64,000 bases of DNA. Source: Cenococcum geophilum 1.58 (taxonomy: Eukaryota; Ascomycota; Dothideomycetes; Gloniales; Gloniaceae). Positions 1 through 35,072 of the stretch are shown in pieces. The stretch covers positions 1,054,001 through 1,118,000 of the forward strand of contig KV748199.1 in the NCBI GenBank assembly GCA_001692895.1, in the 5' to 3' direction. The notes under the pieces were generated by a model, which was not told where the DNA came from, did not search any database, and saw nothing but the letters and a program-made list of their open reading frames with translations. Within the stretch, counting starts at the first letter, position 1. The number at the start of each line of letters is the position of its first letter. A program made the translations under genes and the position numbers.

Positions 1-137
1 ATATTGTTTAACTTTCTATATTTAATACCGTAACTAGGTAGTGATTATATAATGGAACCTTATAGTAGGAACTATAATAGGCTTATTAATGGGCTAGGTA
101 TATAGGTAATATAAATTAAAGTTAATAACGTAATAAT
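1..137 (-). mobile_element. Gyp1 copy III: 3' half of an LTR plus start of its internal leader
   Basis: Positions 48-137 match, in reverse, the last part of the ~424 bp Gyp1 LTR seen whole at 5071-5494, 20971-21394, 49674-50098 and 60452-60876. Positions 1-47 match the leader that follows this LTR at 20930-20970. The LTR stops at 126-137, where the (TAA)n tail of LINE A begins. The missing 5' part of the same LTR is at 7223-7567 in the opposite orientation, and the two parts add up to one full LTR. The element continues to the left of the window. Confidence 0.85.
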
Positions 138-3100
138 AATAATAATAATTTATTACTTAACGTCCGATTTAGATCCCTATTAGGCCCACGCGAACTACTC
201 CTTATTTATATATAGGGAGAAAACTCTATTTAAGAAAAATAAGAAAACCCCATAATCCATCTCGCCGCCTCTTAGGACTCGCCTACTTAGCGCCTATAAG
301 TTGCCTATAGTGCTTTACTACCTTACTATTTAACCTCCTTAGGAACTACTGCTGCTGTAATAAGCCTATGGACGCGCTAGTATTATAAACTTTTACTTTA
401 CTACTGTAGAGTTACTAGGGGGCACCTACTACTTGCCCCCTTGCCTTCTATTACTATTTCACTTATAACCCAGAACTAATTTAGCATATTTTAACTAATA
501 AGCCATTAGGTAACCGCCTTAAGGCCTTTTTATATTAAGAGCAGTGTATTATAGTTCTCTATACTAGCTACTAAGAGCATTATTTCTTAATTAGTATATA
601 GGGGGCATAGCAGTATTATGTGTTTTGGTGTCTGTCTTAGCTAGCTATATTTATATCTTAGGCTACCTACTAGGATACCCACCTAGTAAAGCCAATCTTT
701 TAGTCCTATTACCCCTATTCTTAAGAGTGTTACTATTATATTTTTTACCTTTATTAGGCCTTCTTAGAGCCCTTAGGTATTTACCCCCTATAGTATTAAC
801 TATGCTATAGCTTAGGTTTGTTTTACCTAAGTTAGCCTCTGTACCTTTAACTCCTATTTACCTCTTTAGTATTGGTCTAACCAGTATTATATTGCGGTAG
901 ATGGTTTTCTAGCGTTCTTATATATTCTACTTTAGCTCCTTTCTTTGTCTTACTATTGTCTTTACTAACCTCTTANNCGTCTCCCTTCCTCCTCTATATA
1001 GGCCTGGGCCCTAAAGTAATACTATTCTTTTTTTACTTTCTTTACCTGTTTCTCTAATATCTCTTCCCTACTTTAGGGTTATTAGTTTATTCTCCTATAG
1101 GGCACCCTAGGGTCCCTCTATAGTTTACTTAGGTATGTCTTAATATACTTTATAATATTAGAGTTATATTTATTTTATATTCTTTATATTATAGCGGCTT
1201 TAATATATAACTGTTAGGGGGGAATATTAGATTCCTTCTTAAGCAGTGCTGTGGCCGTTTGCTTATACCCGCCTATAATACTTTAGAGGTAGGCTATTTA
1301 GACCTTTTAAAGTGGTTTAAGGAGTAATTTTAGGGGGCCCTTTTTAGTTTCTTTAATGGCCTAAATACTAGATCTATATATTATGGTTAGCCGGATAACT
1401 GCTATATATAATAACTGCTATATATAGTAGGCGTGACCTTTAAAAGCATAGACCCTATATAGAATTAATAATCCTAGATAAAGTAATGAACTGTACTTAG
1501 CCTTTATAGGCCGCTTACGCCGTATATACGCTTTACTAGAGCTTACTATCTACCTATACTTCTAGTACCCTTAGGCCCTAAACTGGTTAACCCTTAAAGC
1601 CTTAAATATAAATTATATACTAGAGATCTGTAGATTAGTTGCGTTTTCTTATAAAATGGATTAGCTGGTATTTCTTTAGTAAGAATTAGACTCTATAACG
1701 TCTTGCCTATTCTATATAAGTATTATAGGCTTTCTCTAGTATTCTATAATTTTTTATAGCTATTGGCCCGTATATAATTAGGTTTATATTATTAATAAAG
1801 CCTATCCCCTAGGTTGCCCCTTTCTTAAAGGAGTTAAGTAGGTTGCTTATAAAGAAAAGGAAGAGTATAGGCGAGAGGGGTAATCCTTATAGTATTCCTG
1901 TTGTAACTATAATAAGGGGGCTCTAGTATCTGCTAAAGACTAGTAATATTTCTTTCTAGCCTATAAACCTTTAGATAAATTATATAATCCATTCTAAGAA
2001 GCCCTTTACCCTAAGGATATATAGGAGACGCTTATAGGGTATATTATTATAGGCACTACTAATATTTAGGCTAAGTATTAATACTATAAAGTCCTTTCGT
2101 ATTACCTATGTAGATTTAATAGTGGTAGTAAGTAGCGTAAGTGCTGATAGTGTTAAGCGGTTCTTTCTTGCCCCTATTTAGCTTTATAGTAGTAGGGCGT
2201 ATTCCTCTGCTATATCTACTATATGTTCCGCTATTACCCTTTCTAAGATCTTGCTAAGGGTGTTTTCTAAGGTAATAGGGCGGTAGCTTCCTAGGATTAA
2301 GTAATCTGCTTTACCTTTTTTTTTTTATAGAATAACCGTTATTATAGATCTTCTAAGTTATAGGTAGTAGCCTATAGCAAAGTATGCTCTAGCTATATCT
2401 GTAAGCTAAGGTGCTATAAGTAGCCTATAGGTTTTTAGGGCCTTATTTGGAATCCTATTTGGTCCTAGTGCTATATTATTTAAAAGGCGGCTAATAGTTC
2501 TAGCCATTTCCTCTATTATTATGTCGCTGTTAACCCGTAGGCGAGTTACCGGTATTTTACCCGTAATATTATTAAGGTCTACTAGAGCCGGTTAGGGGAA
2601 GAACCTTTCTATAAGGATTTTTACCTTTTTATTATTATTATTTATGGCCTATAATTCTCCTACTCTTTATAGAGGTGGTAAGTGTAAGTCTTCTGCTAGG
2701 CGCCCTACCTTTTTTTTTTTATACCTATTTTGCTATAGCCCAAAGGCCCTTATTATGGGGAAGGCTTAGGTTAGAAGTATGCTTGTTTATAAACTATCTC
2801 CAGTTATTCCTTACTTCTTTTTTTAGGGTATTCTTTAGCTGGTTTCTTATATCTTTATATTGTCTCTTATCTTTAGGGTTATGGCTACTTATATATTTTC
2901 TTTTTGCTTATTATTAGCTAGTAACTAGAACTATATATTATATAGACTATACGTGTTATATATAGGGGCCCGGTTTTAAGATTAGGTAGTGCTCTTTTAG
3001 CCTATTTTTAATTACTACCTAGATCCTTTCTAGTCTTTAGTTAATTTCCTTGGGGGTGGCCAATAAGCCTCGCTTGTTTAGTATTGGGTAGATTTCTTCT

Positions 3101-3653
3101 GGGTTTTAGAGTTGTTGTTTAACTGCATTAAGGAAACTATCTATCTTAAGCTTCCTTATTGCGTATCTTTTTCTATTTAGTTACGCTTTAGTATCTAGGT
3201 CTAGCTATATTTGGATAGGGATATGGTCTAGGGTAAGTGCCTATTCTTCTTTAGGGTTATATCTTTTAAGTCTCTAATATAGGCCTTCGTCTATAAATGT
3301 GAGGTTAATTGTACTTCTGGTAGTGCTTTATTGCTATATAATTGCTCCTAGGGGGGTGGCTAGCTTAAGGCCCTAGATATTTATAGCTCTTAGTAGGCAC
3401 TTTAACTGTTAATCTGTAGTAATATAGATACCCCCCTACCGCGGGTGGTGGAGGTTTATGTCTCCTAATAGGATAGACTCTATACCTTTAGTTTCTAGTA
3501 AGCTTATTACTAATATAATATTCTCTGTTTGTGGGACCCCTTTAACCCTAGGGTTATATACATTAATAATTTGTACCGGTCCCCTATATGTTTGGATTGT
3601 TATAACTGCAATATCTGGGTTAACTGCCTGCCATAAATATGAGGACAGGCTGG
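138..3653 (-). mobile_element. Tad1-like LINE, copy A (RIP-mutated, 5'-truncated)
   Basis: A non-LTR retrotransposon read on the minus strand. Its 3' end is at the left: the conserved tail followed by a (TTA/TAA)n run at 131-160. The 5' end stops abruptly at 3653 inside the endonuclease region. Copies B, C and D share the same tail. The left flank is a Gyp1 LTR and the right flank is Gyp1 integrase, so the two flanks are not one target site. Each flank instead pairs with a flank of copy B (see findings), which suggests a recombinant copy. Confidence 0.9.
340..3653 (-). pseudogene. LINE copy A ORF2 remnant (endonuclease, reverse transcriptase, Cys-rich tail)
   Basis: Read right to left: part of an endonuclease/exonuclease/phosphatase-type domain (about 3653-2950), then reverse transcriptase (about 2650-1650), then a C-terminal region. 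Reverse transcriptase is recognised from the block SYRPIALENTLSKI (about 2300-2250) and the motif A block SGAYNNVPHKRLL (about 2070-2030), both of which align codon by codon with copies B and C. The motif C aspartates are lost through G-to-A changes. Dozens of TAA/TAG codons replace Gln/Trp codons. Short hydrophobic open frames on the other strand here are antisense shadows. No function is left; the family is known to copy its own RNA at the target. Confidence 0.85.
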
Positions 3654-3666
3654 ATAATTAGGTATT
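3654..3666. repeat. 13 bp target-site duplication, displaced partner of 13205-13217
   Basis: ATAATTAGGTATT directly follows the truncated 5' end of LINE A. Its exact reverse complement, AATACCTAATTAT, directly follows the 3' end of LINE B at 13205-13217. Both lie at the same point of the Gyp1 integrase frame, read in opposite orientations. Confidence 0.85.
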
Positions 3667-4330
3667 ACTGTTACTAGTTATATAGTTTATATACAATATA
3701 ACACTATAGGAAGGAATAGGCATATTACCATTTAAAGCAAATTATAGATATAAGCTAAGAATATCGTTGTTACTATAGTAAGCGAAGAAGATAAGTAGTA
3801 TAGCTAAAGAAAGAATAAAGATATTAATTAATCTCTATGCAGACCTTATAGAATTAGTAAAGAAAGTATAAAAGAGAATAAAAAAGTACTATAATGCTAA
3901 GAGATCTAAGGGACCAGATTTTAAGGAGGGAGATAAAGTATGGCTACTATATAAAAATTTTAAGAGTTAATAACTAAGTAAGAAGTTAGACTACGTTAGA
4001 CTAGGACCTTTTAAAATTATATAAAAAATTTCACTAGTTACGTTTAAGTTAAACCTACTAGCTAAAATAAAGATCTACCCTATATAGCATATTGTAATAC
4101 TAGAGCTAGTATATAGGAATATTAAGCTACTAGTTTATAAAGTAGACATATATAGAGGACAGAAAGAGGATAAATAGTAAGTTTTTAAGATTATTAGTTA
4201 TAAGGACATTAATAACAAAATATAGTATAAGGTTAAGTAGATAGGCTATACTAAGACTACCTAAAAACTACTAGAGAATTTAAAGAACGCTATAAAAAAG
4301 GTATAAGAGTATTAGAAGAAATTAGGTCAG
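3654..4330 (+). pseudogene. Gyp1 copy I: integrase C-terminal part and chromodomain
   Basis: The plus-strand reading frame carries the Ty3/gypsy integrase C-terminal block: EGDKVWLLYKNFKS at about 3930-3970, LDYVRLGPFKII at about 3988-4023, then a region with YRNIKLLVYK and a chromodomain-like end (YKDINNKIQYKVKQIGYTKT, about 4200-4260). Parallel sequence occurs in Gyp1b (48400-48880) and Gyp1 copy II (56030-56111 plus 59369-59730). In-frame stops are RIP-type. The integrase core that should precede this piece is at 13218 onward on the minus strand, so this fragment has been inverted relative to the rest of its element. Confidence 0.85.
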
Positions 4331-4369
4331 GCAGTATTAATAAAAAAGAATTACTAAAGAATAAGTTAC

Positions 4370-4770
4370 CTAAGGGGGACCTAAAAAGAGTAGTTACTAA
4401 ATTACTTAAATCTATTTCCTTCTTTATTAGAAGAGAATCCGTTCTTTTATTACTAAGTTTTTATAAACCTTATTTTATAAGTTTTTATTCCTTAAAATAA
4501 ACCTTCTTATAGACTTTCTTAAGACGGATTAACTAAGCGGACGCCGTAAGATAAGACTTAAGAGCCTATTGCTAAGTATTAATAGCCTCCCGTTCTATAT
4601 TATAAGAACGGTATAACTCCGCCAGAGTAATAGATAGTTTATTATCTAGCTATATAGTAGCAGATTAAATATAAAACCCTAAGGTAAATTAATTAGGGAA
4701 CTAGACAACTATTAAGAGTAATAAATTATATATATTTAGTATTAGAGATAAAGCGAACGTTACAGAATAA
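4370..4770 (-). pseudogene. Antisense reading-frame remnant between pol and 3' LTR (Gyp1 copy I)
   Basis: Opposite to pol, this interval holds a frame rich in Lys, Leu and Glu, parallel to the better preserved copies at 59780-60140 and 48930-49330. In copy II it reads LDGKLLQALTKLERS, then an AEQKALD block, then CLKKVYKKV, if RIP stops are taken as Gln. It resembles a coiled coil. I recall similar hypothetical proteins beside gypsy elements in other Pezizomycotina, but could not check this. No function is claimed. It could be a fortuitous antisense frame. Confidence 0.4.
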
Positions 4771-5070
4771 ATAAATATTCGCTTTAGTGCACTTTAAATA
4801 AGAGGACGGTTATTACGAAGATAGGTTCGCCAACGTAATATAAACTAACCCCTTTTTTAAACAGCGAGAATACAGAGATAGTATAATCTCACTAAGAGAT
4901 AATATCGCAGTAATAGTATAAATACGACAAGTAGTTAAAGAAGAAAGAATTGCTTTACGTATAATAAGTAATAATATTAACTAAATTAACTAGACGAACA
5001 TTATACCTCTAGTAAATAATTTAGAGATATTAGGAATCTTTAAGGACGAAAATAAAGAAAAGGGAGATAG

Positions 5071-5494
5071 TGTTACGGACGCTTTAAGTATAATATTATA
5101 ACTACTTAAAGAGGAGTTAGAAGAAGCTAGTTAGTTAATATAAATACGGTTTAATATAGAGCCGATAGAACTATATAACGAGAAATAGTAACTAAGGTTA
5201 TATAATGTAATCTATATAATATATAGGATCTATATAATCCGTAATAGAGTAAATAGAGTATACGTATATTATATATAAGGAGTATTTTATAGGAGTACGG
5301 TTATATATTTAAGGACCCTTAGTTCCTACCTAGATAGTTCCTTCCTTATAGTAATTCTTAGAATACAATTAGAGTTAATCTATTAGGCAACCACTCTACT
5401 AGTTATTATTACGTTATTAACTTTAGTTTGCATCACCTATATACCTAGCCTATTAATAAGCCTATCGTAGTACCTGCTATAAGGTTCCGTTATA
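5071..5494 (+). repeat. Gyp1 copy I 3' LTR
   Basis: A 424 bp LTR starting TGTTACGGACGC and ending TTCCGTTATA (ancestral ...ACA after undoing RIP). It is followed by ATAGG at 5495-5499. The paired 5' LTR is at 20971-21394 on the minus strand, and CCTAT at 21395-21399 is the reverse complement of the same duplication. Together they mark the two ends of one insertion whose 3' part was later inverted. Confidence 0.9.
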
Positions 5495-6690
5495 ATAGGT
5501 AGATATTACTATAGATTTTATTATTAACCTATTACTCTATAAACGATACGGCTATATCTATAAGAACATTCTTATAATAATATACCGACTTATAAAAAAG
5601 CGCCACTACGTCCTAACTAAAGGCGTAGCCGTTAGCGACGTTACTAACGCCTTTCTCTATAAAGTTTACTAACTATATAGGTTACCTAACTCGATTACGT
5701 CCGACTAAGGTATATAATTTAACTCTAATATATAGAGACGAATCTGCTAACGCCTTAGCATCTCTATTAAGATGTCTATATCCTTCTATTATAAAACTAC
5801 TAGGTAACCAGAAAATGCTAATGCTAGTATAAAAGCGTACCTATAACAGGTAGTTGCCTATAATTAAGATAACTAGGTAAATTACCTCCTACTAGGTAAA
5901 TTCATAGCGAATAACCACATCTTAACTACTATAGGACTTACCCCGTTCTTTGCGAATAAGGGTTATTACCCCTAATCCGGCATAGAGCCACTAGAACCTA
6001 TTAATAAGAAACTGCTATATAAAAAACGCCTTAAGATGCTACTTACTAACTAGTATATAGACCGTATAAAAAATCTACTCAACTACTATAAGGGAGAAAT
6101 GGCCTAGGCTTAAGTAAAGTAGGCCTACTTCGCCAACCGTTATAAAACGCCACCACTAAAGATACGTATTGGCGACTAGGTATAGCTAGATATATATAAT
6201 ATCTCTATATAAAGGCCTATAAAGTCACTCGATTATAAGAACCTCGGCCCCTATTTAATTAAACGAGTTATTAATAGGGGAGCCGTATATAAGCTAGAAC
6301 TCCTATATACTCTAGCTACCCATAAAATATAGCCCGTATTTTACCCATAGCTACTACACCTCTATTAGCCTAACCCCTTACCGGGGTAGATATAGCTTAA
6401 ACCCTTACTAGTACTAATCTAAGATAAGAACAAAGATGAGAACTATAAGGAGTAGACCGTTAAACGAATTATTAACTCTAAATACTTTAGTAAAGGTAGA
6501 GGACAACGGCTCTACTATAAAGCTATATATACAGGATTTAACATAAATTAGCCAGAATGGCAACTATAGAAAGACTTTGAAAATGCAAAGGATCTAATTA
6601 GCGACTTTTACTACGCGAACCTATAGAAACCGGGTTTAAGTAGAGACTTTATACCTAATTCTCTATAGGAGCCCTTATAGAGTTAAACTG
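5495..6690 (+). pseudogene. Gyp2: integrase core, C-terminal part and chromodomain-like end
   Basis: This piece continues the Gyp2 integrase frame that is cut at 21395. Joining the two sides with one copy of the ATAGG duplication gives an uninterrupted VPIRQ(stop)VDITIDFI block, which holds the first catalytic aspartate of the integrase triad. Further on are ITSDQGIQF (second aspartate, about 5690-5720) and PENANASIKAYLQ (glutamate, about 5800-5845). LDYKNLGPYLIKR is at about 6229-6267, and a chromodomain-like stretch around FNINQPEWQL is at about 6537-6570. Stops are RIP-type. The orientation is opposite to the 5' half of Gyp2 because the block has been inverted. Confidence 0.85.
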
Positions 6691-6976
6691 TTGTACATTA
6701 CTACGTAAGGGTAAATTACCGTTAAATTGCCGTTAGATTGCGGTAAAGTGCGATTACGTAACTAGAACATTGTTAAAATATCTAGGAACTTTAACCGGCG
6801 GTTAAAGTTATCTAATTGGTCGGATTTTTAGATGCCAAGCCCTATTACATAACATTGTTTTAAGCCTTTAGCAATACCCCCCTTTTCTTCTTTTCTATAC
6901 CTTAAGTGTCTCTTTTATATATATATATAGTAACTATAGCGTTACCAGAGCTCCGCCTCTATAAGAGGGGAGGTAG
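6691..6976 (+). promoter_or_regulatory. Gyp2 3' untranslated region ending in a polypurine tract
   Basis: No coding signal is seen after the chromodomain-like end. Just before the LTR, AAGAGGGGAGG (6963-6973) is an all-purine run in the position expected for the plus-strand primer of LTR retrotransposons. A pyrimidine-rich stretch and short TA runs fill the rest. Confidence 0.65.
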
Positions 6977-7169
6977 TATTATAGAACCCCACTATAGGGG
7001 CCTCTATAGGAGAGCCCCGTGCTCTTATATACACCTTATATATAGCTTATATTAGCTACGCGTAGGTATATTACCTCCTTACGCCCTTAACCCTTACGAT
7101 TAATTATGTAACGTCTTATAGACTCCTTAAATACATACGCTTTATAGCCACTACCCCTGTCCCATAACA
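6977..7169 (+). repeat. Gyp2 3' LTR
   Basis: A 193 bp LTR. Its RIP-mutated start TATTATAGAACCCC corresponds to TGTTACGGAACCC in the second copy at 40932-41122 (minus, 191 bp), and both end ...AACA. The copies align along their full length and differ mostly by transitions. The next bases, TTTAC, should be the target duplication, but they do not match the flank of the second copy. Confidence 0.85.
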
Positions 7170-7222
7170 TTTACTATAGGTAATATAGTTTAGGTTATAA
7201 TAAAGAACTAAAAGATAGAACG
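7170..7222. other. Short flank between Gyp2 and Gyp1 copy III
   Basis: 53 bp of AT-rich sequence of unknown origin between the end of the Gyp2 LTR and the start of a Gyp1 LTR. The last five bases, GAACG, are the expected target duplication of Gyp1 copy III, whose other end lies outside the window. Confidence 0.5.
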
Positions 7223-7567
7223 TGTTACGGACGCTTTAAGTATAATATTACGACTACTTGGGGAAAAGTTAGAAGAAGCTAGTTGGTTAATATAAGTACG
7301 GTTTAGGATGGAGCCGATAGGACTATATAATAAGGAATAATAACTAAGGTTATATAATATGCTACGTATTAAACAGGAGGAATGAGAGAAACTTACGTAC
7401 CTTATGTATAAGACGTATATTATATATAAGAAGGATTTTATAAGAGTATAGTTGTATATTTAAGGACCCTTAGTTCCTACCTAGATAGTTCCTTCCTTAT
7501 AGTAATTCTCAGAATATAATTAGAGTTAATCTATTAGGCAACTACTCCACTAGTTATTATTACGTTA
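7223..7567 (+). repeat. Gyp1 copy III: 5' part of an LTR, cut by a LINE
   Basis: Starts TGTTACGGACGC and follows the Gyp1 LTR for 345 bp, then stops exactly at ATTATTACGTTA (7556-7567), where LINE B begins. The remaining 78 bp of LTR, with the same 12 bp word as its duplication, is at 48-137 on the minus strand. 345+78 bp equals a full-length LTR. Confidence 0.9.
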
Positions 7568-7699
7568 GATATATATCTTAATTAATACAACTAAAAAATT
7601 CAAAAAAGGAGCTCTTGCTGCACCCGGCCTAAAAAGACTAAAACCAACCAAAAGAACCCTAAAAAACACCCAGAGAATCCCCCTAAGATGCATGCATCG

Positions 7700-9410
7700 C
7701 AGGGGAGGCACACGTCAAACGACGGTGGCTCGCACTCGCGCGCGACCGCTAGAACTACGCCTAGTAATAGCCCTCTATAATAAAGATGGGTAAATACTAT
7801 ACTATAAAGCGGAAATACCTCTATTAAGAAGGCATCTAATAAAATATAAAGCCTATTAGACGCGTTTAGTATCTAAAATTATAGGGGAGTAACCGTTAGC
7901 TATAACGAACTAATATAGCTAGTAGAATAGCTTTACTAGTCTAGCGAACCTTAGGCGCCCCTCTAGTAAACCCTTAATTAAATTCTCTAACGGCTAAGCA
8001 AAATTAAAAATAAGTATAACCCCCCTTTACTAGCGAACCGCACTTAGGCCACTATAGCTGCGCTTTTATAGTATAGGAAACCCACCCCTCTTAAGTTAAT
8101 AACTAGGTATATAATTATAATATAACTAAATATAGAATAAGTAGAGGGGCTTAGGGGATAATTAGAAACAGAAGTCCTTATAAAGATATATAAAGAGGTC
8201 TATAACGCTATTATAGTCTAATACCTTAAGAGCGGAGATATTAGAGTTACCTTAAAGGACTAATAGGTAAAGGAACAAGCTATAAGGGTAGGGGATAGGC
8301 TAGGAGAATATATTAGCATAAAAGTACTCCGTAAGGATTACCTAGTTAAAGTCCTAGCGGTTCCTATAAGCCTTAGGGTAGAAAAGGGACGCTAGGCGGA
8401 CAATATAGTAATTATATAGAAGATAGTAAGATAAACGGAACGCCTTATACTAGGACTTGAAATTACCCGAATTTAATAGCTTTAATAAGAAAATATAAAC
8501 TAAGTATATAATAAGAATAATAAGAGGATATAAGGGTCGTTAAAGACTTATTAAGGAGACGCTGGAAGAATATATAGCTCCCTTATTGTTAGCATATATA
8601 TACTAGAAATACAAAAACTCCTTATCTAAAAAGAAATAATTATAAATGGCCTTATATATAATATAAGGCTCTATAACTACAGACTACGCTTAGAATAATG
8701 CTATTGCTATATATAATAGGGACACACCTAATCTATATACGCAGTATAGGTATGCTGCGGCCACTATATAGGCCCCTATAATATAAGATATTGCCTAAAT
8801 TAAGACTAAATAAAATACGTAAACTGCTACTAAAGTATATATAAGGCGTGGGAGAGAGAAGACTATATTAAATACAGGAGATGGAAGGCAAGGGCTTAAT
8901 AGCTGCAGGAATAACTATATGCTAGGTTATATAAATAAAAACAATAGGCGATAAGCTAGGGGGACGTAGGTGCCTTTTTAGCATTTTCTACTTTTAATAC
9001 TAGAGGGCTAGGCCAGCTATCCCAAGCCTTAACGGGCTAAAAGCGACGCCGCGCGATATTACTAGACTAATTAGGGATATAAGGGTTATAGGGGACATAA
9101 GGAAGAGGACGCCCTATAGGAAGACCCCTATAGATAGCGACAGTAGGCTTAAGACTAGGATAATTAAGAATTAGACTTAATGTGGTAAATATAACATTTA
9201 TAGCTAACCTATAAAGGGTATATAGCCGACCAGTAAAAAATAGGGGAAAGAACTAGTAATAATAAATAGATTTAGATATAAGAAGCGCTAATAGAAATAT
9301 AAGACATAGGAATAGAAAGCTCTATATAAAATAAGTAGTAACTAGGGTATAGATATAAAGAGATAAAAGCTCTATATAAAATAAGTAGTAACTAGGGTAT
9401 AGATATAAGA
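7700..9410 (+). pseudogene. LINE copy B ORF1 remnant (Gag-like)
   Basis: An RIP-broken frame that matches the antiparallel ORF1 region of copy D (40900-39222). The shared block ITRLIRDIRVIGDIRE lies at about 9060-9105 here and is intact at 39114-39326 in copy D. The position before the endonuclease fits the RNA-binding ORF1 protein of Tad1-type LINEs. I see no clear zinc knuckle. The exact start codon cannot be fixed. The interval 9150-9420 includes an imperfect ~50 bp direct duplication (AAAGCTCTATATAAAATAAG at 9313 and again at 9367). Confidence 0.6.
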
Positions 9411-9479
9411 GATAAAAGCTCTAAATATCCTAGAGAAAGTAGAAATAGAAGAAGTAAGGAATAAAGGAGAGTTAAAGGA

Positions 9480-12400
9480 CCCTTACTAGGGGTCCGCCAC
9501 CTATCCATTATATAATATAACTACAGCAATATAAACCACCGCCTTATAAGGCCCCTACTAAATAGTCTAGACCTAGAGAAATACTATATCCTTACTATAT
9601 AAGAGCCGTATTATAATACCTTTATATAATTAATATACTGCCCCCAAGGATTCTAGCTCCTATATAAACCAAAAGTAGCTATATACGTATGCTTTATAAT
9701 TAGCAAGGCTATTAGCCTGTCCTTATAGTTATAGTAGGCAGTTAACCTAGATATTATAGTTATAACAATCCAAATATATAGGGGACCGGTATAAATTATT
9801 AATATATATAACCCTAGGGTTAAAGGGTTCCTATAAATAGAGAATATTATATTAGTAATAAGCTTACTAGAAACTAAAGGTATAGAGTTTATCCTATTAG
9901 GAGATATAAACCTCTACTACCCGCGGTAGGGGGGTATCTATATTGCTGTAGATTAACAGTTAGAGTGCCTATTAAAAGCTATAGATATCTAGGGCCTTAA
10001 GTTAGCTACCCCCCTAGGAGCAATTATATGGCAATAAGGCACCGCTAAAAATATAATTAACCTTATATTTATAGACGAAGGCCTATATTAGAGACTTAAA
10101 AGGTATAACCCTAAAGAAGAATAGGCACTTACCCTAGACTATATCCCTATTTAGATATAGCTAGACCTAGATACTAAAGCGCAATTAAATAGAAAAAGAT
10201 ATGCAATAAGGAAGCTTAAGATAGACAGTTTCCTTAATATAGTTAAATAATAACTTTAAGACCTAGAAGAAATCCACCTAATACTAAATAAGCGAGGCTT
10301 ATTGGCCACCCCTAAGGAAATTAACTAAAGACTAGAAAGGATCTAGGCAGTAATTAAAAATAGGCTAAAAGAGCACTGCCCAATCTTAAAACCGGGCCCC
10401 TATGCGTAATACGTATAGTCTATATAATGCGCAGTTCTAGTTACTAGCTAATAATAAGTAAGAAGGAAATATATAAGTAGCTATAACCCTAAAGATAAGA
10501 GATAATATAAAGATATAAGAAACTAGCTAAAGAATACCCTAAAAAAAGAAGTAAGAAATAACTAGAGATGGTTTATAAATAAGTATACTTCTAACCTAAG
10601 CCTCCCCTATAATAAGGGCCTTTAGGCTATAGTAAAATGGGTAAAGAAAATGGCAGGGCGCCTAGTAGAAGACCTATACCTACTACCCTTATAAAGAGTA
10701 GAAAAATTATAGGCTATAAATAATAATAATAAGAAGGTAAAGATTCTTATAGAAAGGTTTTTCCCCTAACTGGCTCTAGTAAACCTTAGTAATATTACAG
10801 GCAAAACACTAGTGACTTACCTACGGGTTAACAGCGATATTATAATAGAGGAAATGGCTAGAACTATTAGCCGCCTTTTAAATAATATAGCACTAGGACT
10901 AGATAGGATTCTAAATAAGGCCCTAAAAACCTGTAGGCTACTTATAGCACCTTAGCTTATAGATGTAGCTAGAGTATACTTTACTATAGGCTACTACCCG
11001 CGACTTAGAAGATTTATAATAACGGTTATTCTATAAAAAGAAGGTAAAGTAGATTACTTAATTCTAGGAAGCTACTGCCCTATTGCCTTAAAAAACACCC
11101 TTAGTAAGATCTTAAAAAGGGCAATAGTGGAACATATAGTAGATATAGTAGAGGAATATACCTTATTACCATAAAGCTAAATAGGGGTAAGAAAGAACCG
11201 CTTAATACTATTAGCACTTACGCTACTCACTACTACTATTAAATCTATATAGGCGATGCGAAAGGACTTTATAGTATTAATGCTTAGCCTAGATATTAGT
11301 AGTGCCTATAATAATATACCCCACAAGCGTCTTTTGTATATCCTTAGGGTAAAGGGCTTCCTAAAATAGATTATATAATTTATTTAAGGGTTTATAGGCT
11401 AGAAAGAAATATTACTAGTTTTTAGCGGATACTAGAGCCCCCCTATTACAGTTGCAATAGGAATACTATAAGGATTACCCCTCTTACCTATACTCTTTCT
11501 TTTTTTTATAAGCAACCTGCTTAACTCCTTTAAGAAAGGGGTAACCTAGGGGATAGGCTTTATTAATAACATAAACCTAATTATATACAGGCTAACAGCC
11601 GTAGAGAATTGCAGAATATTAAAGAAAGCCTATAACACTTATATAGAATAGGTAAGACGTTATAGAATTTAATTCTTACTAGAGAAATACTAGCTAATCT
11701 ATTTTATAAAAAAACGCAACTAATCTGCGGATCTCTAGTATATAATTCGTATTTAAGGCTTTAGGGGTTAACTAGTTTAGGGCCTAAGGGTACTAGGAGT
11801 ATAGGTAGATAGTAAGCTCTAGTAGAGCGTATATATAGCGTAAGCGGCCTATAAAGGCTAAGTATAGTTTATTGCTTTATCTAGGATTGTTAATTCTATA
11901 TAGGGTTTATGCTTCTAAAGGTCACGCCTACTATATATAGTAGTTGTCCGGCTAACTATAATATATAGATCTAGTATTTAGGCTATTAGAGAAACTAAAA
12001 AGGGCCCCCTAAAATTACTCCTTAAACTACTTTAAAAGGTCTAAATAGCCTACCTTTAGAGTATTATAGGTGGGTATAAGCGAACGGCTATAGTACTACT
12101 TAAGAAGGAATCCAATATTCCCCCCCTATAGTTATATATTAAAGCCGCTATAATATAAAAAACGTAAAATAAATGTAACTCTAATGTTATAAAGTATATT
12201 AAGACATACCTAAATAAACTATAGAGGGACCCTAGGGTGCCCTATAGGAGAATAAACTAATAACCCTAAAGTAGGGAAGAGATATTAGAGAAATAGGTAA
12301 AGAAAGTAAAAGAAGAATGGTATTACTTTAGGGCCTAGGCCTATATAGAGAAGAAAGGGAGACGTATAAGAGGTTAGTAAAGACAATAGTAAAATAGAGA

Positions 12401-13060
12401 AAGGAGCTAAAGTAGAACATATAAGAATGCTAGGAAACTATCTACCGTAATATAATACTAGTTGGACTAATACTAGAGAGGTAAATAGGAGTTAAAGGTA
12501 TAGAGGCTAACTTAGGTAAGATAAACCTAAGCTATAGTATAGTTAACGCTATAGGGGGTAAATACCTAAGGGCTCTAAGAAGGCCTAATAAAGGTAGAAA
12601 ATATAATAGTAATACTTTTAAGAATAGGGGTAATAGGACTAAAAGATTGGCTTTATTAGGTAGGTGTTCTAGTAGGTAGCCTAAGATGTAAATATGGCTA
12701 GCTAAGACAGACACTAAAACACATAATACTGCTATACCCCCTACGCACTAATTAAGAAATAATGCTCTTAGTAGCTGGCATAGAGAACTATAATACACTA
12801 CTCTTAATATAAAAAGGCCTTAAGGCGGTTACCTAGTAGCTTATTAGTTAAAATGTGCTAAATTAGTTCTAGGTTATAAGGGAAATAGTAATAGAAGGCA
12901 AGGGGGCGAGCAGTAGGTGCCCCCTAGTAACTCTATAGTAGTAGAGTAAAAGTTTATAATACTAGCGCGTCTATAGGCTTGTTACGGCAGTAGTGGTTCC
13001 TAAGGAGGTTAAACAGTAAGGTAGTAGAGCACTATAGGTAACTTATAGGCGCTAAGTAGG
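9480..13060 (+). pseudogene. LINE copy B ORF2 remnant (endonuclease and reverse transcriptase)
   Basis: The endonuclease part (about 9500-10100) shows blocks such as QEPYYNTF and INIYNPRVKG once RIP stops are read through. Reverse transcriptase (about 10740-11740) shows SYCPIALKNTLSKIL, MGVRKNRLILLAL and the motif A region ISSAYNNIPHKRLLYIL. Motif C is FINNINLI where FADDTNLI is expected, so both catalytic aspartates are lost by G-to-A change. The C-terminal part (about 12500-12800) resembles the Cys/His-rich tail of fungal LINE proteins (compare copy C). The protein would nick the target and prime cDNA there; this copy cannot. Confidence 0.85.
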
Positions 13061-13204
13061 CAAGTCCTAAAAGGTGGGGAGATGGATTACGGGGTTTTCT
13101 TATTTTTCTTAAATAGAGTTTTCTCCCTATATGTAAATAAGGAGTAGTCCGCGTAGGCCTAATAGGGATCCAAATCGGACATTAAGTAATGAATTATTAT
13201 TATT

Positions 13205-13217
13205 AATACCTAATTAT
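13205..13217. repeat. 13 bp target-site duplication at the LINE B 3' end
   Basis: AATACCTAATTAT, the exact reverse complement of 3654-3666. See the inversion finding. Confidence 0.85.
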
Positions 13218-16200
13218 TCTATGCGTGGTTAATATAATGTCTTAAATACTATTCTAGCGTCTAATTTAATCTTTCTATTTAACTGTCTGTCTGCGGGTAA
13301 TATGCGGTAGAAGTTGCTGCTTAAACTCCTTACTCCGCTAAAAATACCTTTTAGAATGCTGCTATAAATCTTAGATCTCTATCCAATATAATTTTACTTA
13401 GTGCTCTATATCTTATAAACACTTCTTTAATATAGATTCTAGCGATATCATCTACTAAGATTTCTTCGGTATATATTATAAAGTACCCCCACTTTATAAG
13501 CTTGTCTACTATTACTAAAATTATATTATAATCTTGTCCGGTAATAGAATCTCTTAACTTTAGTAGCTTAATAATAAAGTCCTATAATATATAACCTCCT
13601 ATAGTCTCTCTGGTATTTTAATAGGTTATAGCCCTCTATACGGCTTATACCTTATTAGTTTATTCCTTTAGCAATCTAAATACTCCTTTATTACTTTTCT
13701 TACAATATTTTAGATTCCGTTAATAATATATTCCTCTTAAAGTCTTAACATTAAGCCTATTACTCTATTATGTCCTTAAGTTATTCCCTTATAGAAATCT
13801 TCTATAAAATGCTCTACTATACTTCTTAGGATGTACTTCGCTTCCCTATACTTATATAGTATTTCTTCTAAATATTCTAACTGTTTCTCTAGTTATACTT
13901 TAAAGATTTTTTATACCTAAAAGCTTTCTAGTATCTCGTAGATTCTTTCTGGTTTATTATCCTCTTAAGTTGCTACTAGTTTAGGGTAATTGTATCTAAT
14001 TAATCCATTCTTATCTTTACGTAGCATTGCTTCTAATAGCTTCTTATCGTTCTATAATTTAGCTTTTCTGCTAAGTGCGTCTGCCCTTACATTCTTAGTT
14101 TCTTTAGTATACTAAATCTTAAAATGGTATTCTGTAAGCATCTCTACCTATCTAACTTATCTTTAATTAAGTTCTTTTATTATTAGGAACCCTATTAGGT
14201 TCTTATAATTTATCTTAACTATAAATAGTTTCTTTACGCCTTATAAGAATGCTCTCTATTTCTTAAGTATTATAACTATCCCTAACAACTCCTTATTGTA
14301 GACGTTATAGTTTAACTCTAATGGTGTTATCTTCCTGCTATAATATGCCACTAGGTGCTATATATCTTTATACTTCTATAGTAAGTATGCTCCTAGTATA
14401 TAGTCTAATATATCCGTTTCTATAACCATATCTAGTCCTAGCTGGTAGATTTTAAGGATTGGCTCTTAGGTAAATAACTCCTTAAGTTCTTTAAACAACT
14501 TCCTTTATTCGTTTCCCTATGCCTATAGTTCCTCTTTTTTTTATAAGCCTAGTAAGTGGTTTAATATTCTTTAACCACTATACTATAAACCTTCTATAGT
14601 AGTTGCAAAACCCTAAGAATAACCTTAACTATATTATATTCTCTAATTCTTACCAACTTACTATAGCTTTAATCTTCTTTAGGTCTATATTAATATGGCT
14701 TAGTTTAATAATAAATTTAATAAAATTAGTCTTCCTTATAAAGAACTCGTATTTTTTAATTACTACTAGCATCTACTCTTCTTATAGTCTCTTTAAGACC
14801 CATTTAACGTATTCCCTATATTCTTTTTTAGTTATTAAGTAGATAATATTATTATTAAGGTATGCTATAATAAACTTATTAAGGTATTCTTCTAATACAT
14901 TATTAATTCTTTTCTAAAATGTTACTGGTATATTTATTAATCCAAATTATATAACTAATAGTTTATATAGTCCTTCTCTTAATCTAAAGGTTGCCTTTTA
15001 TTTATTGCCTTCCTTAATTCTAATCTAATGGTATACCCATTTTAGATCTATCTTTATAAAGATTTGCGCATTGCCTATCCTATCTTAAATTTCGCTAATT
15101 AAGGGTAAAGGATACCTATCCTTTTAAGTAATGCTATTTAACTACCTATAGTTAATGCATAACCTAAGTTTTCCGTTCTTCTTTGGTATAAATAGTACTA
15201 AATAACCTACTAATGACTACAATAGTCTAATATATCCCTTCTATAAGTTTTCCTAGATAAACTCCTTAAGTGCTCTTAACTCTTCTTTAGTAAGCTTATA
15301 GGTTAAAAAGAACCTTAGACTTATTCCTAGTTCTAACTCTATTTTATAATCTTATACTATATAATCTAATAGCTTTTTACTTTCTAATAACTATAGTTTC
15401 TTGCCATACTTATAGTATCTCTTTAGCACGTAACTTAATCCCTTCTCTATTTCTTTATAGGTTGCTCCTATTTAGTACCATACTAACTTAGCTTATTATT
15501 ACATCTTACGGCGTTAAGTATCTTTAATATTAACCTAGCCTGTAATTTAATTAATCCTTAAATTATATTTCTATAACTAAGGCATTCCTAATACTGCTTT
15601 ATCCCGTCCTAATAGTAGGATATTAAAAAACATCTTAATCCGTCTTTCTTTAATGGTTATTTAAATAGGTCCTATTTTAAGATTAATAATCCCTCCTCTA
15701 TAGGCTATTAGATCTCCTAAAATTATAACTAATAGGTAAGGTTATTCCTTCTGTTTATAAGGTAGTCCTATTCTCTTAACTACTATTAATAAGATATGGT
15801 TTCGCGTTACTCCACTATCTATTAGCGCTTTAAACTATTAATCCTACCAATTAACTTATAAATTTAGGTGTCGTCCTTATATTCCTTTAAGGGTCTAAGG
15901 CTCTACCACTAGCTCCCCCTAGTCCCGTGGGCCTCTGCTTTTCTTAACTATTAGCTACTTAATCTTTATATACTTAGCTCGCTCTTTAGCTAATACCTAG
16001 TTCGCTTTTTATCTTTAATATACTATAGACATATGTTTTCTAAATATTTCTACTACTATTATCTATCTAAGCATTTTTCTATAAGGAATCTTCCTGGCTA
16101 AAATATTAAGTCTCCTAACTCCTAAACTTCTATTAGATATTATCTATGCATATATTTAGTATTTCTATATTATTACTTATCTGGCGCCCAATATATCCTT

Positions 16201-16640
16201 ATAGGGTATTTTTAATTCTTTTCCTTTAGATTTTTGTGCATTTTATATATATTGTCTATATATGCAATCCATAATAGCGTATAGTATGCTAGGTGCTTTA
16301 GGTTAACTCTTAACTCGTCTTTATCTTTAAGTTTAAACCTTTATCGTGCTAATCTAAACGTTATAACTTTGTTTGTAAGTACTAAGATACGTCTTTTACT
16401 TCTCTAGTCCTCTAATTATTTCTCTAGATCCTTTAACATTATAATTAAGGCTCCTTTAATATAAGTTATAGCCTTTTCTATAATTGGGCGGTCCTAGATA
16501 ACTTATTTATCCAACTATATATAGAAGTCTTCCTATTTATTATTATATTATTGCCTATACTACTTTTAATACAGCTGCTGGAGTGTATACGGCTTGTCCA
16601 TAAGGAAGTATCTTCTTATTACTATATTATAACAGCCCTT
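13205..16640 (-). pseudogene. Gyp1 copy I pol: integrase core, RNase H, reverse transcriptase, protease
   Basis: Minus-strand frame, from right to left: a Gag-pol linker (16640-15900), aspartic protease (about 15850-15500), reverse transcriptase (about 15330-14600), RNase H (about 14550-14150), integrase zinc-binding part and core (about 13980-13260). It is colinear with Gyp1 copy II (52380-55800); for example TSTAYYPQTD at 13285-13320 matches 55710-55740. RIP stops are frequent. The frame ends at 13205 at LINE B, and the missing C-terminus is at 3654. The right end at 16640 is interrupted by LINE C. Confidence 0.85.
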
Positions 16641-16654
16641 TATATATTGTTCTT
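16641..16654. repeat. 14 bp target-site duplication of LINE copy C (left); right copy at 18767-18780
   Basis: TATATATTGTTCTT occurs directly before the truncated 5' end of LINE C and again directly after its (ATT)n tail. The flanking Gyp1 sequence joins across it in frame with Gyp1 copy II (around 52390). Confidence 0.9.
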
Positions 16655-18520
16655 ACCCTTAGCAAGATCTTAGAAAAGGTAATAGCGGACCGCATGGCAG
16701 ACACGGCTGAGGAACACGCCCTACTACCACAGAGCCAAATGGGGGCAAGAAAGAACCGCTCAACACTATCAGCACTTACGCTACTCGCTGCCACCATCAA
16801 ATCTACATGGGCGATGCGAAGGGACTTCGTAGTATTAATGCTCAGCCTAGACATTAGTGGCGCCTACAACAACGTACCCCACAAGCGTCTCCTATACATC
16901 CTTAGGGCAAAAGGCTTCCTAAAATAGATTATATAATTTGTCCAAGGGTTTATAGGTTAGAAAGAAACATTACTAGTCTTTAGTGGATACCAGAGCCCCC
17001 CTATCGCAGTTATAACAGAAATACTATAAGGATTACCCCTCTCGCCTATACTCTTCCTTTTCTTTATAAGCAACCTGCTTAACTCCTTTAAGGAAGGGGC
17101 AACCTAGGGGATAGGCTTTGTTAATAATATAAACCTAATTATATACGGGCTATCAGCCGTAGAGAATTATAGAATACTAGAGAAAGCTTATAATACCTAT
17201 ATAGAATAGGCAAGACGATATAGAGTCCAATTCTCACTAGAGAAATACTAGCTAATTTATTTTATAAGAAAACGCAACTAATCTATAGATCTTTAGTATA
17301 TAATCTATATCTAAGGCTTTAGGGGTTAACTAGTTTAGGGCCTAAGGGTATTAGGAGTATAGGTAGACAGTAAGCTCTGGTAGAGTATATATACGGCGTA
17401 AGCGGCCTATAAGGGCTAAGTACAGTATATCGCATTATCTAGGATTGTTAATTCTATATAGGGCCTATGCTTCTAGAGGTCACGCCTACTATATATAGCA
17501 GTTATCCGGCAAACCATAACATATAGGTCCAGTATTTAGGCCATTAGAGAATTTAAGAAAGGCCCCCCTAAGTCGCTCCTTAAACCACTTTAAAAGGTCT
17601 AAATAGCCTGCTTTTAAAGTATAACAGGCGGATATAAGCAAACGGCCACAGCACTTCTTAAGAAGGAAGCCAATATTCCCCCCCTATAACTATATATTAA
17701 AGCCGCTATAATATAAAGGGCCTAAAATAAACGCAACTCTAATGTTATAAAGTATATTAAAACACGCCTAAATAAACTATAGAGGGACCCTAGGGCGCCC
17801 CGTAGGAGAATAAACTAATAACCCTAAAGTAGGGAAGATATATTAGAGAAACAGGTAAAGAAAGCAGAAGAAGAATAGTGCTACTTTAGGGCCTAGGCCC
17901 ATATAGAGGAGGAAGGGAGACGCGTAAGAGGCCAGTAAAGATAATAGTAAGAAAGAGAAAGGAGCTAAAGCAGAGCATAAAAGAATGCTAGGAAACTATC
18001 TACCGTAATATAACACTGGTTAGACTAACGCTAAAGAGGTATATAGGAGTTAAAAATATAAAGGCTAACTAAGGTAAGAGGAACCTAAGCCGTAGCATGG
18101 TTAACGCTATAGGGGGTAAACACTCTAGGGCTCTAAGAAGGCCTAACGAAGGCAGAAAATATAATAGCGATACTTTTAAGAACAGGAATAATACGACTAA
18201 AAGACTAGCTCTACCGGGTAGGTGTCCTAGTAGGTAGCCTAAGATGCGAATATAGCTGGCTAAGACAGACACCAAAATATGTAATACTATTATGCCCCTT
18301 ACGCACTAACTAAGAAGTAATACTTTTAGTAGCTGGCACAGAGAACTATAATACACTACTCTTAATATAAAAAGGCCTTAAGGCGGTTACCTAGTAGCTT
18401 ATTAGCTAAAATATACTAAACCAGTTCCGGGTTATAAGGGAAATAGTAATAAAGGGTAGAGGGGCGAGTAACGGGCGCCCCCTAATAACTCTATAGTAGT
18501 AGAGTAAAGTTTATAATACT
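16655..18520 (+). pseudogene. LINE copy C ORF2 fragment (reverse transcriptase to C-terminus)
   Basis: An open stretch at 16694-16927 shows QSQMGARKNRSTLSAL and the motif A block LDISGAYNNVPHKRLL, with the catalytic aspartate intact. Downstream, motif C reads FVNNINLI (about 17118-17141), the RIP product of FADDTNLI. KAENIIAILLRTGIIRLKDQ at about 18150-18209, followed by a Cys-containing block ending ILLCPL (about 18245-18300), matches the C-terminal region usual in fungal LINE polyproteins. There is no start of its own because of 5' truncation. This is the best-preserved LINE coding stretch in the window. Confidence 0.85.
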
Positions 18521-18766
18521 AGCGCGTCCATAGGCTTATTACGGCAGCAGTGGTTCCTAAGGAGGTTAAAAAGTAAGGTAGTAGGAGCACTATAGGTAAC
18601 TTATAGGCGCCTCGCAGGCGCCTTATAGGCGAGTCCTAAAAGGCAGGGAGATAGATTACGGGGTTTTCTTAAATAGAGTTTTCTCCCTATATGTATATAA
18701 GGAGTAGTCCGCGTGGGCCCAATAGGGATCCGAATTAGACGTTAAGCAATGAATTATTATTATTAT
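16655..18766 (+). mobile_element. Tad1-like LINE, copy C (5'-truncated, with target duplication)
   Basis: About 2.1 kb, starting in the middle of reverse transcriptase and ending in the family tail with (ATT)n. A perfect 14 bp target duplication shows an ordinary 5'-truncated target-primed insertion into the minus-strand Gyp1 copy I. The first ~270 bp retain many CpA and an open frame, while the rest is strongly RIP-mutated. Confidence 0.95.
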
Positions 18767-18780
18767 TATATATTGTTCTT

Positions 18781-20930
18781 CGAATCTAGTAAAAACCCTT
18801 AGGTCCTCTTTATTTTCTAGTTTAATAAGCCACTTAGCTCTTAGTGTGCCTGCCCTAGGCCTATTAGTAATTCTTTATACTAGCGCTCTATCCCTTATAC
18901 GTCCTAATATGCTAAATCTCTTATCTAGTTTCTATTCTTGCTATACGATAATTTTTTATCTAAATTCTTCTATAGTTTCTTTTGGTTTGCGTCTTATAGA
19001 TAGATCCTTAAAGTCTTCTTACTTTTTAATCTAGGTATTAATATTTTAATCCGGTTACTAAGCCTTGCTCGCAATTTTTTCTATAGTCCTTATTCTGTTG
19101 CTAAAATCTTAGTCCTATAAGATTTTTAATCCTAAGCTTACTTCTATCTTAAGCTTAGCTCTAGCCTTAGTCCAACTAGGCTTTACTAGTGTTCTTATCT
19201 CGTCTTAAAAGTCTTAAATCTCACTTATCTTATCTTAAGAGTCTTGTGCTTTAGGAAACTTTATCCTAAGCTTATTTATATATTATTAAACTAAGCTATT
19301 ACTCTACTCTATCGGTTATTGTCCGTTATAGGTCCTTAAGCTTACCTTATCCCGTCTTAAGAATCTTAGTTATCTTATATCTTATCTTAAAAATCTTAAG
19401 CTTTTGGCCTTTTGCCTTTATTAAGTGCCAAAGTAGTTTACTGCCCTACTTCTCTTGCGTCTTATAAAGCGATAGATATTATATCTAGTAGGGTCTTAAT
19501 CCCTACTAATATTCCCTATTCTATAGTGGAATCATCCTTTATCTCTTATATAATATCTCTAAGGTCTATATATTTCTAGTAAGCTACCTTTATCGCCTTA
19601 TTATTATAAAATGTTTCGCCTATATTAAATTTATTATCCTTAATATCTGATCTGCGAACTAGTTTATTGGTTCCTTTATATTCCTTTAAATATGGCTTTT
19701 ATAGCTAATAGCTTACGCCGTACTTAGTATCCTTATAAATTTAGTATATGTTATTATAACAAAACGCAAAGCTTTTATTTAAACATTCTTTTGTTTCTTG
19801 CAGTATATTATTGTCCCTCTATACGTATATATCGTCTGCTAGTCTTATTCCTTTTACTATATAGTAACTTTAACCACTTCTATAGTCTCTAGCGTAGTAA
19901 CCCTATTTTCCGCAATTTATATAAGCTCCTTCTTTAAACTATTTTTTTTGCTATAAAGTCCGCCTAAACATCTTCTACTGCTAAAATCCCTGGTTCGGCC
20001 TCTGCTTCTTAGACCTTTAATTACTTAATCCTTATCCTCTGGGTTTCTATAGTCGTCCTTTAAACCATTTCTTTTCTTTAGTACTACTTAGGTCCATTAG
20101 CTCCGCGCCATACTATAGTTTTTAACTTAGCTTTGGTCATTGCGTGCTCTGCGCCTTATACAACTATAGAACTCTATTTTAACCTCTCTTAGCCTATTCC
20201 CTTTAGTAGATCTAATTGTTAATCTTAATCGCTTAATTTATTAGTTCCCGTAGGGTATCCGCATCTTCTATTAGGATAATCACGTCCTAGACTTTAGCCT
20301 TAAGTCCTTATTTATACTATGCTATAAGCGTCTTATTATTCCACTTAACTTATATTGCTAACGTCTGGAACTATATTATATACTTAATTACTAAGGTTTA
20401 TTGCGTAATATCTTAAAGTTTTCTTTCCGCTATAGTTACTGCCTTTAGGTCTCCAAATATCTATATAAGTTGCTCCGTAAACCCTTCCTAGCTTATAAAT
20501 ATAAACTATACTTCTTAATTAGTGGTTATCATTTTATTCGCTTATATTTCCGTAAGGTAAGGCTTAAACTACTTAAGTGCCCTTCTTAATATGAATAGTC
20601 CCGCATATGCTATTTGATCTATAAGTGTTAGTAGCTTTGCTCCTTCTTATATAACTTTAAAGTGCATTTACGTAAGAAATCCCTTAAGCTTTAATCTCTC
20701 TCCTAAGTATCTCTTAATTAATAGTAATTTAATCTTTGCTGCTCCTATCCCGTTAATCCTATTTTCTAACGTTATATTATTTTCCGTTAACTAGTTAACT
20801 ATCTCTTATAACTGTTTAACCGTTACAGGTTGCTATAAATTAGTATCTATTATACTAGTGTCGTTACCTAACCTTAAAGTAGTTGCCGCCGTCAATAGCG
20901 TTATAGCTAGTGCTTTTAGTGGCATGTTGT
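18781..20930 (-). pseudogene. Gyp1 copy I gag and Gag-pol linker
   Basis: Minus-strand continuation of Gyp1 copy I beyond LINE C. It is colinear with the gag regions of copy II (50130-52390) and Gyp1b (42100-44200). It includes the retrotransposon Gag block (about 20770-20200), the zinc-knuckle region (about 19925-19880) and an acidic Gln/Ser/Asp-rich linker (about 19400-19100). All are broken by RIP-type stops. Gag would form the particle and bind the RNA genome. No intact start is retained. Confidence 0.8.
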
Positions 20931-20970
20931 TCAACTTTTTGTATTTAATACTATAACTAGGTAGTAATTA

Positions 20971-21394
20971 TATAACAGAACCTTGTAGTAGGTACTATAA
21001 TAAGCTTATTAATAGGCTAGGTATATAGGTAATATAAACTAAAATTAATAACATAATAATAACTGGTGGAGTAGTTGCCTAATAGATTAACTCTAATTAT
21101 ATTCTAAGAATTACTATAAGGAAGGAACTATCTAGGTAGGAACTAAGGGTCCTTAAATACACAACCGTACTTCTATAAAATCCTCCTTATACATAATATA
21201 TATATGCTTTATTTGCTTTATTACGGATTATATAGATCCTATAGATTATATAGATTATATTACGTGACCTTAGTTACCATTCCTCGTTATATAGTTCTAT
21301 CGGCTCTATTCTGGACCGTGCTTATATTAACTAACTAGCTTCTTCTAACTCCTCTTTAAGTAGTTATAATATCGTACTTAAAGCGTCCGTAACA
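20971..21394 (-). repeat. Gyp1 copy I 5' LTR
   Basis: 424 bp, reading TGTTACGGACGC from 21394 downward and ending TTCTGTTATA at 20971. Next to it at 21395-21399 is CCTAT, the reverse complement of the ATAGG that follows the 3' LTR at 5495. Confidence 0.9.
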
Positions 21395-23735: not shown

Positions 23736-23794
23736 TGTTTATGTTACCTTAATTTAATTAATCAATCAAATCGTTTATCGTGTTCGCTGGCTGG

Positions 23795-24490
23795 TTGTTT
23801 AAACGGTTGTCGTGTGGCTCTGGCGACGGTCATATGGCGATAACGACGGTCGTCTAGCTCTGGCGACGGTCATCTGGCTCCGGCGACGGTCGTCTGGCTC
23901 TAACGGTCTAACGGTCGTCTAGCTCTAGCGACGGTCATCTGGCTCTAACGACGGTCGTCCAGCTCTGGCGACGGTTATCTGGCTCCGGCGACGGTCGTCT
24001 AGCTCTAACGGTCGTCTAGCTCTAGCGACGGTCATCTAGCTCCGGCAACGGTCGTCCAGCTCTAGCGACGGTCATCTGGCTCCAGCAACAGTCGTCTAGC
24101 TCTAACGACGGTCGTCTAGCTCTAACGGTTGTCTAGCTCTGGCGACGGTCATCTGGCTCCGGCGACGGTCGTCTAGCTAACGACGGTCGTCTGGCTCTGA
24201 CGGTTATCTAGCTCTAGCGACGGTTATCTAGCTCCAGCGACGGTTGTCCAGCTCTGGCGACGGTTATCTAGCTCCAGCAACGGTCGTCTAGCTCTAACGA
24301 CGGTCGTCTGGCTCTAACGGTCGTCTAGCTCTGGCGACGGTCATCTAGCTCCGGCGACGGTCGTCCAGCTCTGGCAACGGTCATCTGGCTCTGGCAATAG
24401 TNGTCTAGCTCTAACGACGGTCGTCTGGCTCTAACGGTCGTCTAGCTCTAGCGACGGTCGTCTGGCTCCGGCAACGGTTATCTACTAGCT
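23795..24490. repeat. ~20 bp minisatellite, GACGGTCGTCTAGCTCTGGC type (S1)
   Basis: About thirty or more copies of a unit made of CGACGGTCGTC plus TAGCTCTGG/TAACGG variants. The reverse-complement unit (CCAGAACTAGACGACCGTCG) forms the arrays of S2 and S3. The leading edge, AATCAATCAAATCG and GTTCGCTGGCTGGTTG (23755-23800), is conserved in reverse at 62590-62640. One ambiguous base is at 24402. Confidence 0.9.
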
Positions 24491-35008: not shown

Positions 35009-35072
35009 ACGTCAGGAAAACGGGGGGTGGCGCACGAAATTTAGTTTCGCTAAAAGTGTTTTTGGGGCCCGN

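Follow-up and report, generated by a model that had tools for sequence, protein, structure and literature searches.

Two copies of one family of long interspersed nuclear elements (LINEs), here called LINE A and LINE B, lie in opposite orientation near the left end of a 64,000-nucleotide stretch of DNA (C24:1054001-1118000, the window in what follows) in a 177-Mb assembly of 162 contigs, and neither is bounded by a target-site duplication of its own. The question raised by this arrangement is whether the segment between them, positions 3654 to 7567, has been turned around, and whether the LINEs themselves were the means. An initial annotation, made without database searches, proposed both, and the follow-up reported here found it right on the structure and probably right on the mechanism.

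The window DNA consists of nested LINEs and Gypsy-type elements, two of which, Gyp1 and Gyp2, are involved here. A self-comparison of the window, suggested in that annotation as a check, recovered LINE A on the minus strand and LINE B on the plus strand with 90.6% identity over 3515 columns, the outer start of LINE A falling at 133 or 137. All 32 window bins of 2 kb had a TpA/ApT ratio of 1.31-2.17 and a (CpA+TpG)/(ApC+GpT) ratio of 0.23-0.88. Judged by the usual cut-offs for indices of repeat-induced point mutation (RIP), that is, a high value of the former and a low value of the latter, these ratios are a mark of RIP, and the host was therefore taken to be a filamentous fungus.

The flanks of LINEs A and B were compared within an alignment of 30 LINE copies, comprising A, B, two further window copies (C and D) and 26 of 27 fetched loci, the remaining locus (L012) being LINE B itself; the 27 had been scored out of 2,134 first-look genome candidates. 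In the resulting 30 x 30 matrix of 5' against 3' flanks, with 870 non-self pairs, the flank at the 5' end of LINE A and that at the 3' end of LINE B agreed over 14 nt abutting the LINE tail, the sole non-self pair of that length. The next-longest non-self pair (L015 and L024) reached 13 nt, was composed of A and T only and lay away from the junction. The best self pairs were 7 nt for LINE A and 6 nt for LINE B. The mismatched own flanks and crosswise pairing described in the initial annotation were thus recovered, as was the exact reverse complement, at 13205, of ATAATTAGGTATT at 3654. The reciprocal pair, the 5' flank of LINE B and the 3' flank of LINE A, matched exactly over 12 nt, and no second pair of LINEs with exchanged flanks stood out in the matrix.

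Duplications of the ordinary kind are found elsewhere in the family. Exact self matches of 12-17 nt were present in 11 of the 30 copies, and self matches of at least 13 nt abutting the tail in eight, LINE C among them. Nine of the 26 fetched copies had a duplication better than every mismatched flank; the other 17 did not, some of which (e.g. L018, L024 and L026) have exact self matches in other flank comparisons. The pairing of 5' ends with duplications implies that the parents were a 5'-truncated and a full-length LINE, as had been proposed. On this sequence evidence the ends of the inversion are placed in or at LINE A on the left and in or at LINE B on the right.

Turning the segment 3654-7567 restores four duplications, which stem from four separate insertions: two of LINEs, one of Gyp1 copy I (ATAGG) and one of Gyp1 copy III (GAACG). 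The turned segment returns to Gyp1 copy I its 3' long terminal repeat (LTR), and ATAGG then stands at both ends of this copy, in agreement with the initial annotation. The same holds for the single Gyp1 LTR that was predicted to form on turning, now attributed to copy III, the two parts of which join to 345 + 78 = 423 bp against 424 bp for the family LTR; positions 47-1 beside the shorter part correspond to the beginning of the internal region of Gyp1. Gyp1 copy II, taken as a control, carries AGTAT at both ends. In the local DNA the chance agreement is 2.4e-3 for two random 5-mers and 1.6e-5 for two 13-mers.

Gyp1 copy III leaves the window on its left side, so that a minus-strand LTR with GAACG after it would be expected further left. 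An LTR query of the 20 kb preceding the window gave one LTR, which is in minus orientation (-14454 to -13938) and is followed by GAACG, as at 7218-7222, a partner that the initial annotation did not give. A tandem array inside this LTR divides its match in two; the repeats of the array are about 18 bases long and make the LTR longer than the 424-bp LTRs of the window.

Uninterrupted copies of the affected sites were also recovered. The LINE site in Gyp1 was uninterrupted in all eight copies examined, namely window copy II and seven fetched loci (L002-L008, the best 7 of 39 other matches), and in these copies the flanks after the 5' end of LINE A and the 3' end of LINE B adjoin with an overlap of 11-13 bases. 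The continuity of Gyp2 after turning, which had been claimed from its integrase frame, was seen in all three fetched copies (L039-L041, taken from some 40 Gyp2 matches), the complement of 21395 onward running straight into 5495 onward. The 5-bp overlap was reached in two of these; in L041 the alignment ends 10 bases short and the letters run on. The host of Gyp1 copy III was uninterrupted in the one locus examined (L042), chosen as the only one among the matches listed that starts at the Gyp2 end, near 7170 where most listed matches stop, and continues through the host. There, the part matching the window as far as 7222 and the part matching the DNA left of the 3' LTR share exactly five bases, GAACG.

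The restored duplications show the inversion, as do the unbroken copies of three sites, of which one could be reached only beyond the edge of the window, and on these comparisons of sequence the inversion of 3654-7567 can be regarded as firmly established. Three features expected of an inversion mediated by transposable elements were found: oppositely oriented homologous elements at the two breakpoints, exchanged duplications, and flanks that fit only after turning. The features concerned are listed in Table 1.

Table 1. Features of the inverted segment and its surroundings (window coordinates; negative positions lie left of the window).
Feature	Position	Strand	Basis or partner
Inverted segment between LINEs A and B	3654-7567		Flanks, duplications, uninterrupted copies
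LINE A, 5'-truncated (element position 2147 onward), (TTA)n tail	137-3651	-	Self-comparison and alignment
LINE B, full length, (TTA)n tail	7568-13205	+	Self-comparison and alignment
ATAATTAGGTATT, one copy of the truncated LINE's duplication	3654-3666	+	Flank matching
Partner (reverse complement) of 3654-3666	13205-13217	-	Exact match
ATTATTACGTTA, one copy of the full-length LINE's duplication; TACGTTA is the part free of tail ambiguity	7556-7567	+	Flank matching
Partner of 7556-7567, continuing into the LINE A (TTA)n tail	126-137	-	Exact match
Gyp1 copy I, 3' internal part, severed from body 13205-20970 (-)	3654-5070	+	
Gyp1 copy I 3' LTR, 424 bp	5071-5494	+	
ATAGG, Gyp1 copy I duplication	5495-5499	+	Partner 21395-21399
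Gyp1 copy I 5' LTR, 424 bp	20971-21394	-	
ATAGG (complement strand), Gyp1 copy I duplication	21395-21399	-	
Gyp2 3' part	5495-7170	+	Continuous with complement of 21395 onward
GAACG, Gyp1 copy III duplication	7218-7222	+	Partner left of -14454, outside the window
Gyp1 copy III 5' LTR, first 345 bp	7223-7567	+	
Gyp1 copy III 5' LTR, last 78 bp	48-125	-	
LINE C, control copy inside Gyp1 copy I, own 14-15 nt duplication	16655-18769	+	Flank matching

As to the means, two LINEs of the same family with (TTA)n tails would have inserted in opposite orientation about 3.9 kb apart, the truncated one into Gyp1 copy I with the duplication AATACCTAATTAT, and the full-length one into the 5' LTR of Gyp1 copy III with a duplication ending in TACGTTA. 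Pairing and homologous exchange between the inverted LINEs, probably while they were near-identical, would then have flipped the DNA 3654-7567 and left LINEs A and B each with the 3' end of one parent and the 5' end of the other. RIP may afterwards have struck A and B separately, in their present arrangement. Homologous exchange is preferred because long near-identical inverted repeats are well known to invert the DNA between them in this way, leaving exchanged duplications as the mark. That an exchange from LINE to LINE, at whatever time, made the inversion is considered likely; what we infer is that the mechanism was homologous exchange and that insertion, flip and most of the RIP followed one another in that order.

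The timing was approached through the strand bias of RIP. LINE copies have a mean pairwise identity of 0.920, and almost all of their variation is C/T or G/A (1013 and 864 columns), which suggests that the parent LINEs were probably near-identical at insertion. Over 2147-5638 of the element, RIP polarity was -0.136 (standard error 0.022) in LINE A and +0.069 (standard error 0.020) in LINE B, the first 2147 bases of which are neutral (-0.004, standard error 0.027). The sign stayed the same from one 500-base bin to the next in L014, L033, L034, D, B and A (the last bin of A being zero); in most other copies polarity was near zero or mixed. The parents before the inversion were modelled as A-5' with B-3' and as B-5' with A-3', joined at 11 switch points from 2400 to 5400, and 19 full-length copies (L013-L031) served as controls. 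The truncated parent showed a jump in polarity of z 3.0-5.9, reached by none of the controls at any of the 11 points. In the full-length parent the jump was z 2.4-3.7 at six points up to 4400, where again no control reached it, and 1.9 at 4800 (1 of 19). Since the jump of the rejoined truncated parent is unmatched among the controls, the greater part of the RIP probably postdates the flip, and a misjoin of the assembly within the LINEs is unlikely. Stated more fully, a fair conclusion from these patterns would be that most RIP followed the inversion, that the switch is close to one or other end of the shared part, or that no switch lies inside the LINEs.

Several observations weigh against the proposed exchange and its early date. 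No switch point was located in LINE A or B in the 30-copy alignment, so that the two LINEs are only putative chimeras. The initial annotation had hoped to find the switch through a comparison of LINEs A and B against C and D, but of the informative columns only four fall outside the C/T and G/A classes, LINE A agrees with LINE B at each of them, and the rest looks like later RIP; lineage-specific differences in this family are too few to place it. Thus, of its proposal of an inversion by LINE recombination, the inversion stood and the recombination is retained as the probable cause. The full-length parent showed an ordinary jump at 5000-5400, with 11-13 of the 19 controls as large, and LINE A as assembled drifts toward zero near its 3' end, its jump at 5000 being z 2.9 against a control maximum of 2.6. 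The Gyp1 parts beside the flip were too weak in RIP polarity for dating (z -0.9 and -1.4), and their use was dropped. The second LINE duplication is weak when taken alone, and weaker than the initial annotation has it. The reverse complement of ATTATTACGTTA does lie at 126, as annotated, but the match shrinks to 7 nt after tail trimming, a length reached by 303 of the 870 non-self pairs, because its first bases are also (TTA)n tail. The 12-mer also occurs in other Gyp1 LTRs (at 5405, and at -14376 outside the window), so that by itself it would mark the same LTR position and not the same LTR copy.

The absence of a visible switch point would suit a simultaneous integration of two LINEs of one sub-lineage, in which the 5' ends of their complementary DNAs were joined to each other's target; the flip would then be part of the integration, and A and B would be whole. 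The crosswise duplications would be the same, and A and B do share minor letters at element positions 4444 (7 of 30 copies) and 5383 (8 of 29), A and B counted in. In the portions of PMC7058536 used here, translocation, duplication and fold-back inversion during L1 integration are described, but these concern single L1 insertions joining a break and not a balanced swap. A literature search that covered its sources in part met no description of simultaneous LINE integration with swapped ends, which is no proof of absence from print. Such an event would need two LINEs to insert at the same time 4 kb from each other, to swap their 5' ends and yet to keep both duplications whole; no sequence feature favours it over exchange, and exchange between inverted repeats is in general the commoner process. 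It is thus considered improbable. An assembly error, with reads from the LINEs misjoined and the true chromosome uninverted, might be suspected since the LINEs are repeats and LINE A contains two ambiguous bases at 976-977. A contig join at these two bases was considered and rejected, as each of them has its counterpart in the alignment with LINE B, which reads TA there. There is no gap in either LINE, the single run of more than three N in the window (706 N at 37735-38440) being far from the inversion, and at 91% identity, with a longest shared exact run of 79 bases, confusion of A with B is unlikely. An uninverted truncated LINE would, moreover, have a jump in polarity that none of the 19 controls shows at the 11 joins from 2400 to 5400, and the best 40 candidates scored in each search included no near-identical duplicate of the segment, the second-best matches being 92, 93 and 92%. 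A misassembly is accordingly held to be very improbable.

Within the preferred explanation, exchange between the LINEs, there is a variant in which it took place after RIP, between LINEs about 9% different. The tested points begin 250 bases into the shared part and stop 240 bases before its end, which leaves room for it, as does the ordinary jump of the full-length parent toward the 3' end. The jump of the truncated parent, unmatched at every tested point, speaks against a late exchange, as does the suppression of exchange that a divergence of 9% generally brings. This variant is regarded as unlikely.

The LINE family shows a reverse transcriptase domain, 5'-truncated copies, a simple 3' tail and target-site duplications of variable length. 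RVT_1 was matched in LINE B (E 5.1e-14, in a frame with stops read through) and in an open piece of LINE C (E 2.5e-9); in the same kind of frame, Exo_endo_phos_2 in LINE B was below the cut-off (E 4.4e-4, 20.5 bits against 27.4). The clade may be Tad1-like. LINE B extends about 36 nt past the common 5' end. These bases were considered as repair filler specific to the inversion, an idea rejected on finding similar extras in other copies: the distance from the duplication to the LINE start was 0-47 in eight of the nine fetched copies with clear duplications and 68 in the ninth (L027). The full-length copies (L013-L031) vary in the number of extra bases at this place, and 41 nt of extra 5' sequence are common to L020 and L025, as if from one source copy.

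A tandem duplication of about 50 bases at 9312-9427 in LINE B is absent from LINE D. LINE D (31002-35009, minus strand) and the LINE fragment 39222-40475 correspond to adjacent stretches of LINE B (9149 onward and 7896-9150, respectively) and seem to be one LINE interrupted by some 4.2 kb of DNA that is mostly richer in G+C, contains tandem repeats and includes the 706-N gap. In its first few hundred bases LINE C is much less mutated than other copies, with a T fraction at C/T columns of 0.07 and 0.13 in two 400-base bins, compared with 0.36-0.67 in nine others. Gyp1 gave RVT_1 and RNase H matches, with Integrase_H2C2 below the cut-off, and the Gyp2 part gave rve and a Tf2-type SH3, both below the cut-off. 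Tandem-repeat arrays of related sequence occur at 23764-25770, 35376-37734 and 61717-62579 in the otherwise TA-rich window, and the DNA flanking LINE locus L020 on its 3' side holds one too.

Retrotransposon regions mutated by RIP are known from filamentous ascomycetes, and the window resembles them in its TA-rich, CA-poor transposon remains, its many stop codons and its copies that are about 92% alike. It departs from their usual treatment in that RIP strand bias serves to date a flip relative to the mutations. This bias places the flip probably before most mutations and at the same time checks the assembly. The polarity test is usable on other rearrangements in RIP-mutated genomes, and could show whether exchange mainly precedes RIP divergence.

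Among described systems the closest comparison is with the Drosophila inversion 2z3, which is reported to have been made by ectopic recombination between copies of the transposon Galileo; the authors name three signs, namely that the copies are oppositely oriented, that their duplications are exchanged and that the copies are chimeric (PMC2775673). Two opposite homologous elements at the breakpoints and exchanged duplications are both found here as well. Compared with that account, the element here is a LINE rather than a DNA transposon, the segment measures 3.9 kb and itself consists of nested retrotransposons, the inversion is read from the inverted chromosome alone, and the LINE copies are putative chimeras. 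L1-mediated rearrangements in human tumours, fold-back inversions included, likewise have a LINE at the junction, but they reportedly arise during one integration (PMC7058536), whereas here two LINEs with two duplications form the ends of a balanced inversion. Inversion mediated by transposable elements with exchanged duplications is therefore already known, and the present example is a well-preserved one: through its exchanged duplications, nested duplications and uninterrupted copies, it provides an unusually complete record of a small fungal inversion probably mediated by LINEs.

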